This document shows, piece after piece, positions 27,116 to 29,647 of a DNA stretch of 64,000 nucleotides. The DNA lies in assembly GCA_028874215.1 (NCBI GenBank), contig JAPPLF010000049.1:1-64000 (forward strand), given 5' to 3'. The notes beneath the pieces are model-generated. The model ran no database searches. It worked only from the letters and a program-made list of their open reading frames with translations, and had not been told where the DNA came from. Both the position numbers and the translations under genes were made by a program. Numbering within the stretch: position 1 is the first letter of the stretch; each line of letters begins with the position of its first letter. This DNA is from Acidobacteriota bacterium (GTDB lineage Bacteria > Acidobacteriota > UBA6911 > RPQK01 > JAJDTT01).

Positions 27116-28063
27116 ATGCGTTTCACTGAGTTTAGGAAGTCCCTGGCCCAGCCTCATTCCGTCTACGTCGTGGTTTCGACCCAGGACCTCTTTCTCAAGC
27201 GCGTCTACGACCTCTGCCGGGAACAGGTGGCGGAGTCGGCCCGGGATTTCGATTGGTCCGTTTTCGACCTGGAGAAGGATCCGGCCGGGGAGGTGGTCCA
27301 GGCCGCTCGCACGCTGCCGTGGGTCTCCAAGCGGCGATGGGTGTACGTGCGGGACCACGGCGGATCCGGATCCGGGCTGAAGGACTATGTGGCTCGCCCG
27401 GCGCCCCGGACCGTGCTGATTCTGGAGTTGAAGAAACGCTCCAGGGCCTTGTCGCGCCTACCCCTGGTCGAGTTCGACAAGAAGGTGGGGCCGGCCCGGT
27501 GGCTGCGGGCCTGGGCCAAGCGGGAGGACTATGTCCTGGAACCGGCGGCCGCGCGGGCCCTGGTCGAGTTGGTGGGGGACGACCTGGGCCGCCTCAGAAT
27601 GGAGTTGGAGAAACAGTTTCTGGCCCAATGGGAAAGCCGGAAAATCACTTCCGAGTCCGTCGCCGAAATGACCCTGGAGAGTCGGGAATACGACGTGTTC
27701 AACCTCATCGGCGCCATGGCCAAGGGGCAGTCCCCGGCGGCGCTCCTGATTCTCAACCGGCTCTTCGAGAAGGGCGTCGGCTTCCCCCAGATCCTGGCCA
27801 TGCTCTACTGGACCTTCAGACGGTTGTTGGTGGCCCGGGAGATGCTCGAGCGGGGACGGTCCTTTCAGGAGGTTCTCCGCAAGCTCAAGATCTGGAGCTA
27901 TCGCGGCCGGGAAGGGGAGGTGCGCCGCTACTCGCCCGATTGGATCCGGCGAGTCCTGATCCGGATTCGAGAAACGGATCGGGCCTGCAAGAGCGGCGTC
28001 TCCGAACCCCGGTTTCACCTGGAGCGCCTGCTCGTTGACACCTGTCGCCGGGGACAACTATAA
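27116..28063 (+). CDS. holA: DNA polymerase III delta subunit
   Basis: 315-residue clamp-loader subunit that opens the beta sliding clamp. The AAA-like N-terminal domain has the expected SVYVVVSTQDLFLKRVYD start, the middle helical domain includes GDDLGRLRMELEKQF, and the C-terminal domain has SREYDVFNLIGAMAKGQ and FPQILAMLYWTFRRLLVAREM; all are typical HolA blocks. It lacks a functional P-loop, as normal for delta. Its stop codon lies inside the -10 element of the rpsT promoter. A small hairpin (CGCCCG-TTCC-CGGGCG, 27084-27099 approximately) lies in the short gap after lptE, without a T-tract. Confidence 0.92.
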   Translation: MRFTEFRKSLAQPHSVYVVVSTQDLFLKRVYDLCREQVAESARDFDWSVFDLEKDPAGEVVQAARTLPWVSKRRWVYVRDHGGSGSGLKDYVARPAPRTVLILELKKRSRALSRLPLVEFDKKVGPARWLRAWAKREDYVLEPAAARALVELVGDDLGRLRMELEKQFLAQWESRKITSESVAEMTLESREYDVFNLIGAMAKGQSPAALLILNRLFEKGVGFPQILAMLYWTFRRLLVAREMLERGRSFQEVLRKLKIWSYRGREGEVRRYSPDWIRRVLIRIRETDRACKSGVSEPRFHLERLLVDTCRRGQL

Positions 28064-28064
28064 T
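28035..28064 (+). promoter_or_regulatory. Perfect-consensus sigma-70 promoter for rpsT
   Basis: TTGACA at 28035-28040 and TATAAT at 28059-28064 are both exact matches, with an 18-base spacer. The promoter lies within the last codons of holA, and the TAA inside the -10 box is the holA stop codon. Transcription should start near 28071, leaving a leader of about 18 bases with the GGGAG ribosome binding site before rpsT. Confidence 0.85.
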
Positions 28065-28088: not shown

Positions 28089-28367
28089 ATGCCAAATATC
28101 AAGTCGGCGGACAAGCGCATGCGTCAGAGCCGAAGGCGCAGGATGCGAAACCGCCACTATCTGAGCCGGATGAGGACCGAAATCAAGCGTTTCCGCCGCA
28201 TGTTGGAGGAGGGCCGGTCCACGGACGCCGAGGACCATCTTCCCACCATCTACACCGTCATAGACCACACCGCCCAGAAGGGCGTCATTCATCGCCGGAC
28301 CGCCGCGCGCTACAAATCCCGGCTGACCCACTCGTTGAATCGGACCCTGGCGGCATCCTCGGGTTAG
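28089..28367 (+). CDS. rpsT: 30S ribosomal protein S20
   Basis: 92-residue primary 16S rRNA-binding protein. The N-terminus MPNIKSADKRMRQSRRRRMRN and the helical hairpin ending GVIHRRTAARYKSRLT are characteristic. Start at 28089 follows GGGAG at normal spacing. The stop codon TAG (28365-28367) coincides with the outer end of the palindromic element at 28365-28610; the base after the element would also complete TAG, so the protein end is the same with or without it. Confidence 0.96.
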   Translation: MPNIKSADKRMRQSRRRRMRNRHYLSRMRTEIKRFRRMLEEGRSTDAEDHLPTIYTVIDHTAQKGVIHRRTAARYKSRLTHSLNRTLAASSG

Positions 28368-28610
28368 CCCGCATTTCTCACCAGGTCGCTATGCGTATGA
28401 TGAAAAAGGATCTACTTTTTAGCATTTGCGCGAATTTTTCCAAGGTTTCTCCGAAACAGACTGCGCTGGGCGCGCGCTCGCTGGTCTTTTCGCCCTCAGC
28501 GCGCACGTGCTCCCTCAAACGTAGTCACCACTACGCTCTCGGTCGCGAGCACGCGCTGAGGGCGAAAATCCTGCGCGATCGTCACGCCCCCTGGTGAGAA
28601 AAGCGGGCTA
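28365..28610. mobile_element. 246-bp MITE-like element with 21-bp terminal inverted repeats
   Basis: The termini 28365-28385 and 28590-28610 are inverted repeats matching at 20 of 21 positions (outer sequence TAGCCCGC...; one T/A difference). Both ends are TA, as expected for a TA target duplication of IS630/mariner-type elements. Inside is a perfect 17-bp inverted repeat, TTTTCGCCCTCAGCGCG at 28487-28503 and its complement at 28552-28568, with CGTAGT-CACC-ACTACG at 28520-28535 at its centre. No transposase is encoded; open frames across it are low quality. It separates rpsT from phoH. The remaining 65 bases to phoH show no recognised signal. Confidence 0.65.
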
Positions 28611-28675
28611 GCAGTGGTTGCCTGGACCCCGACCCCATACATGTCCCCATTTGCACGGCTGCAAGATCCCCACTC

Positions 28676-29647
28676 TTGAAGAAGGTTCTCCTCCCGGACC
28701 AGTGCGCTGAAATTCTCTTCGACCTCCGGGACCGGAACGTGCGGTTGCTGGAGTCGCTGTTCCAGGTTCGGATCGGCGCGCGGGGCCCGCGCGTCTTCAT
28801 CGAGGGGGATGAGAAACACGAGAAGGTCCTGGAGAATCTCCTCACGGAATTTTCGTCTTTGGTCTCCAATGGATGCTCCTTCTCCAACGGCGAGCTGAGG
28901 GAAGCGTTCCAGCAGATCGCCGAAGGGGCGGGCGGGAGTCTCCACGATTTCTTTCCCAAGGCTCTGGTCCTGAAGACTCCCATACGGGAAGTGTCGCCGC
29001 GGAGTCTGAACCAGTCCCGTTACGTCCAGGCCATTCACCGCAACGATCTGGTCTTCGGCATCGGTCCGGCCGGCACGGGAAAGACCTACCTTGCGGTGGC
29101 GACGGCGGTCTCGTTTCTCCAGGACAAAAGAGTCCAGAGGATCGTGTTGTCCCGTCCCGCGGTGGAAGCGGGCGAACGGCTCGGGTTCCTCCCGGGGGAC
29201 CTCCAGGAAAAGGTCAACCCCTACTTGAGGCCCCTGTCGGACGCCTTGATCCACGTGATCGGGGCGGAGAGGGTGCAAAAGCTCATGGACCGGGAGATCA
29301 TCGAGATCGCTCCTCTGGCCTTCATGCGGGGGAGAACCCTGGGCGACTCGTTCATCATTCTGGACGAGGCCCAGAACTGCACCTCGGAGCAGATGAAGAT
29401 GTTCCTCACTCGAATCGGTCTCAATTCCAGGGCGGTCGTCACCGGGGACATTACTCAGATCGATCTTCCCCCGGGTCAAACGTCGGGCCTGGTGGAGGCC
29501 CGCGGGTTGCTCAAGGGCTTGCAGGGGATCTCGATCTGTGAGTTCGATCGCCGGGACGTGGTGCGCCACCGGCTCGTCAAGCGAATCATCCAAGCCTACG
29601 AGTCCATGGACCCGGGGGCCAAGAGAGGTGCGAGAAGTGGGTCGTGA
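28676..29647 (+). CDS. phoH: PhoH-family ATPase
   Basis: 323-residue PhoH-like protein with the Walker A motif at residues 130-137 (GPAGTGKT) and Walker B in FIILDEAQNCTSEQMKMFLTRIG. The preceding domain (to about residue 110) matches the N-terminal region of PhoH/YbeZ proteins, linked to RNA metabolism and ribosome quality with YbeY. The start is TTG 28676; no better start upstream because of the palindromic element. The usual ybeY neighbour is absent; ddl follows instead. Confidence 0.92.
   Translation: MKKVLLPDQCAEILFDLRDRNVRLLESLFQVRIGARGPRVFIEGDEKHEKVLENLLTEFSSLVSNGCSFSNGELREAFQQIAEGAGGSLHDFFPKALVLKTPIREVSPRSLNQSRYVQAIHRNDLVFGIGPAGTGKTYLAVATAVSFLQDKRVQRIVLSRPAVEAGERLGFLPGDLQEKVNPYLRPLSDALIHVIGAERVQKLMDREIIEIAPLAFMRGRTLGDSFIILDEAQNCTSEQMKMFLTRIGLNSRAVVTGDITQIDLPPGQTSGLVEARGLLKGLQGISICEFDRRDVVRHRLVKRIIQAYESMDPGAKRGARSGS

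Follow-up and report, generated by a model that had tools for sequence, protein, structure and literature searches.

Results

A 240-bp element between rpsT and phoH

The window analyzed, 64,000 nucleotides of contig JAPPLF010000049.1 from an Acidobacteriota bacterium, carries the rpsT gene for ribosomal protein S20 (positions 28089-28367, plus strand; 92 aa), followed on the same strand by a phoH-like gene (28676-29647). Both were recognized as open reading frames and bear the names given to them in the first-pass annotation. A perfect sigma-70 consensus promoter is present just 5' of rpsT, at positions 28035-28064 (TTGACA, 18-nt spacer, TATAAT; 12/12). Between the two genes lies a 240-bp element (28368-28607; drawn on the plus strand, its orientation being arbitrary), delimited by the empty site of a related genome, by its target duplications (TSDs) and by an alignment of 22 copies (see below). 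The left terminal inverted repeat, CCCGCATTTCTCACCAGG (28368-28385, plus strand), is identical to the end of other copies and matches the right one (28590-28607, minus strand) at 17 of 18 positions. The element is flanked by TTAG on the left (28364-28367), a tetramer that includes the TAG stop codon of rpsT (28365-28367), and by CTAG on the right (28608-28611). Its interior contains an inverted repeat formed by a left arm, TTTTCGCCCTCAGCGCG (28487-28503), and a perfectly matching right arm, CGCGCTGAGGGCGAAAA (28552-28568), and, between them, a small apical stem, CGTAGT-CACC-ACTACG (28520-28535, arms 28520-28525 and 28530-28535), all on the plus strand. The first-pass annotation had described a 246-bp MITE-like element bounded by 21-bp inverted repeats at 28365-28385 and 28590-28610. 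These repeats do match at 20 of 21 positions, and the perfect 17-bp internal repeat and central stem are present where they had been placed; the outer TAG and CTA, however, belong to the 4-bp duplication, so that the element proper is limited to 28368-28607.

The element is short and devoid of a transposase gene, and its 18-bp ends are of the kind expected for a MITE. Its sole open reading frame (68 aa) has no match in Pfam. The sequence folds far beyond chance (RNA, -118.7 kcal/mol, z -7.6; DNA, z -8.5), none of 200 shuffled sequences folding as well. A search of Rfam returned sub-threshold matches only, with no family above its gathering score, and the plasmids and phages searched gave no match to the element.

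Empty sites in related species

Three congeners (G001, G002 and G003), each with one rpsT homologue, were examined for the spacing between rpsT and phoH. The intergenic sequence of G002, GGCGGCATCCTCGGGCTAGCAGTGG, lacks the element and contains the exact empty site GGG-CTAG-CAG (GGGCTAGCAG), whereas the window reads GGG-TTAG-[240 bp]-CTAG-CAG. The gap in G003, GCCTCGGGCTAGCAGTAG, is likewise without the element and near-identical to the empty site. The net gain at the locus thus amounts to 244 bp, of which 240 bp are the element and 4 bp the second copy of CTAG. The left copy of the duplication has changed from CTAG to TTAG since the insertion, a synonymous substitution (GGC to GGT, Gly). The presence of GGG-CTAG-CAG in the sister species indicates that rpsT already ended in this TAG, a codon of the host itself, before the insertion duplicated it. 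The TAG comes from the duplicated target and not, as first proposed, from the left end of the element. The companion proposal, that removing a TA-flanked insertion would leave TAG in the same place, proved correct as to the TAG, which is there in the empty site, and wrong as to the target: a TA-only duplication is ruled out, the duplicated sequence being 4 bp long (TTAG/CTAG) and of the form YTAR. In G001 (L087, contig C274), the element is also missing, and so are 9 bp immediately 5' of the rpsT stop, a loss that leaves the frame intact. It may be the scar of an excision or have arisen as a separate deletion; a past excision at that site, which would weigh against the history proposed here, is therefore possible.

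Copies in the genome and in the genus

In the 5.7-Mb genome to which the window belongs, 18 matches to the end sequence TAGCCCGCATTTCTCACCAGG were counted (up to 3 mismatches allowed), as against none for the reversed control pattern, and the 246-base query detected copies dispersed over many contigs. About six copies have both ends (in contigs C49, the window, C68, C97, C87, C42 and C101); solo or degraded ends are found on other contigs. The C42 and C101 copies are short forms of approximately 130 bp without the hairpin region; in the long forms, on C97 and C87, the hairpin is interrupted by an insertion. All three congeners carry further copies, several of which, in G001, sit at contig ends. 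The tetramers flanking full-length copies are identical in 10 of 19 cases and agree in at least three of four bases in 17 of 19. Furthermore, when the flanks of the C97 and C68 copies are joined, they match G001 unbroken across the junction, defining two further empty sites. The element is thus a real MITE, multicopy in its own genome and in three congeners while absent from the congeners' rpsT-phoH gap, rather than single-copy and conserved in all relatives. The notion that the sequence is a native, conserved intergenic DNA or structured RNA element of this gap draws on its strong fold and on nothing else; with the locus empty in all three congeners, copies elsewhere and no Rfam family above gathering score, it can be regarded as refuted by the empty sites, and we give it practically no credence.

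Conservation of the internal hairpin

In the alignment of 22 copies, standard pairs occupy 95% of the cells of the internal stem. Two-sided substitutions affect 5 of 16 counted pairs and total 20, compared to 5.0 in shuffled alignments (500 shuffles, none reaching 20) and a much lower number with the pairing slid; relatedness among the copies inflates these counts, but the slid control is nonetheless clear. The comparison argues that the stem is maintained as a family-wide feature, conceivably for the sake of transposition or of tolerance in transcripts. Mismatches in the stem (window positions 28487-28568 and the corresponding stretches of other copies) are strongly skewed on the plus strand, with 14 C-A against one G-U. 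C-A mismatches correspond to wobble pairs on the opposite strand. Strand-specific selection on an RNA hairpin is not claimed, however, as G-to-A changes outnumber C-to-T outside the stem too, which explains part of the skew.

The first-pass annotation had also suggested that the element might serve as a transcript-end structure. As an intrinsic terminator (a GC-rich stem followed by a U-tract) this does not hold, for the stems are not followed by a U-tract, and the only match to the terminator consensus in the region is at chance level. In a broader form, the element would owe its fixation to its long hairpin, which would provide rpsT mRNA with a 3'-end structure for termination or for protection from 3' exonucleases. 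The very stable fold, the location immediately 3' of the stop codon of a gene whose promoter fits the consensus perfectly and the two-sided changes that preserve the hairpin speak for such a role; yet the hairpin is conserved family-wide and so says nothing about rpsT, the same element occupies many unrelated sites, relatives lack it here, and the terminator features are wanting as just described. We consider this explanation improbable. The element could influence rpsT or phoH mRNA.

Relationship to IS1380

The blastn comparison of the element with 30 loci containing PF13701 matches revealed reliable similarity only over the terminal 13-17 bp. Three of these loci, all assigned to the IS1380 family by both NCBIfam and Pfam, are informative. 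In G003, an intact 470-aa transposase (locus L218; NCBIfam IS1380, 392 bits versus a cut-off of 180) is encoded in a 1758-bp element that has CCCGCATTTCTCAAC and CCCGGATATCTCATC as its ends and is flanked by TTAG on either side. Its ends match those of the MITE at 14 and 12 of 15 positions; they come from the same genus but are not identical, a point against the IS1380 connection. A closer match (15/15 and 14/15) is provided by the ends of a Planctomycetota element, CCCGCATTTCTCACC and CCCGCATTTCTCACA (L217), which is flanked by CTAG on one side and the imperfectly matching CTGA on the other. A gammaproteobacterial element (L216) has ends CCTGGATTTCTCACC and CTAG on both sides. The ends shared with these intact elements, together with a target duplication of the same length and sequence (TTAG/TTAG in L218, CTAG/CTAG in L216), suggest that the MITE was probably mobilized in trans by IS1380. 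Duplications of 4-bp YTAR sequences are not unique to IS1380, the IS5 group and IS701 being examples of other families that produce them. Nevertheless, in a transposase search confined to IS1380 (PF13701), elements combining matching ends with such duplications encode IS1380 transposases scoring more than twice the NCBIfam cut-off, and derivation from another IS family seems very unlikely.

A search of the window's genome (G000; 97.5% complete, 113 contigs) detected no IS1380 gene, a result that counts against the IS1380 connection but fits loss of the autonomous partner, whose presence in the same genome is usual though not required. Other genomes carrying the end sequence do have IS1380 genes; among congeners, IS1380 is intact in G003 and present as fragments in G001 and G002. 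Because this assembly yielded no such gene, the window copy is probably immobile now. G003 also contains a diverged IS1380-like transposase of 512 aa (L245, 1132-2670, and about seven further places), whose approximately eight near-identical copies suggest recent activity. Candidate autonomous partners sought as long pairs of exact ends in the 120 GTDB contigs listed turned out to be chance pairs of neighboring MITEs around ordinary genes.

Spread beyond the genus

The sequence YTARCCCGCATTTCTCACCAGG is found in at least 120 stretches of GTDB contigs. The matches listed come mostly from Gammaproteobacteria and Acidobacteria, but also from Planctomycetota, Verrucomicrobia and Alphaproteobacteria, and include many two-ended elements, often 238-244 bp long, with CTAG or TTAA-type duplications. 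Five of them, including copies from Candidatus Versatilivorator vitaminiformans and from unnamed Acidobacteria, align with the window element over approximately 150 bp, at about 83% identity. The element appears to belong to a widespread, so far unnamed MITE group linked to IS1380. At two loci (L144, 4469-4874; L165, 407-683), one MITE apparently has another short inverted-repeat element, with the variant ends CCCGCCTGTCTCACC and CCCGCATGTCTCACC, nested inside it.

Insertions at stop codons

The YTAR target contains TAA or TAG. Among the matches listed in the independent GTDB sample, the duplicated tetramer includes the stop codon of a called gene (at least 100 aa) at 39 of 174 ends, compared to 126 of 2137 strand-sites for non-genic control YTAR tetramers (odds ratio 4.6 for element ends; 2.7 to 5.1 within each tetramer). 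Within the window's genus there is no such excess (6/47 ends versus 26/207 control sites). Gene calls in this test are crude (greedy longest open reading frames) and the sequences are related; in addition, purifying selection against other sites could yield an equal excess without any targeting. For these reasons the rpsT case is not proof that stop codons are targeted; we read it as a tolerated outcome that the target sequence brings about repeatedly. It is conceivable, although we hold it only tentatively, that IS1380-type MITEs with near-identical ends in several phyla use stop codons as safe landing sites where insertions accumulate. With TAA or TAG inside YTAR, each insertion at a gene end would regenerate the stop and might be tolerated even after essential genes.

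Discussion

The sequence following rpsT is a real insertion of an apparently unnamed IS1380-type MITE, with the empty site present in sister species. All considered, it is very likely a non-autonomous type II MITE with IS1380-type ends, probably mobilized in trans by IS1380 into a CTAG target at the end of rpsT. An IS1380-family DDE transposase supplied in trans would bind the CCCGCATTTCTCACC ends and place the element in a YTAR tetramer, with duplication of its 4 bp. At rpsT, this tetramer was the CTAG made up of the third base of the last codon (Gly) and the TAG stop; the insertion therefore duplicated the stop codon without altering S20, and lengthened the rpsT-phoH gap by 244 bp of strongly folding sequence. 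The locus thus offers a clean case, backed by empty sites in sister species, of a transposon insertion that should be protein-neutral, since the target duplication re-forms the stop codon of a core ribosomal gene. It also connects IS1380 with a widespread group of MITEs that apparently has no name, and points to a testable rule on the sites at which they build up.

The literature search turned up no IS1380-type MITE. The IS1380 family itself (NF033539/PF13701; e.g., ISPme1, ISEcp1, IS1247) shares with the MITE the terminal CCCGCATTTCTCACC and CTAG/TTAG-type 4-bp duplications, as seen in the congener and in other phyla, but the MITE is 240 bp long, lacks a transposase and has an unrelated interior. 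IS1247 is listed with a 5-bp duplication, not 4 (PMC3281130). Since its similarity to an IS is confined to the ends, the element can be classed, from its sequence, as a type II MITE as defined in PMC10969869. Type II MITEs such as RUP of pneumococcus and QMITE2 are likewise short and non-coding, with terminal inverted repeats, a target duplication, strong secondary structure and IS similarity confined to the ends (PMC10969869, PMC2229807). RUP, however, targets TA and is linked to IS630-Spn1, whereas the present element has a 4-bp YTAR target and IS1380-type ends. The eukaryotic counterpart of IS1380 is the piggyBac superfamily (PMC5718144), with which the MITE shares, by description, TTAA-like 4-bp duplications and, in piggyBac, ends that mostly start with CCC (PMC10813416).
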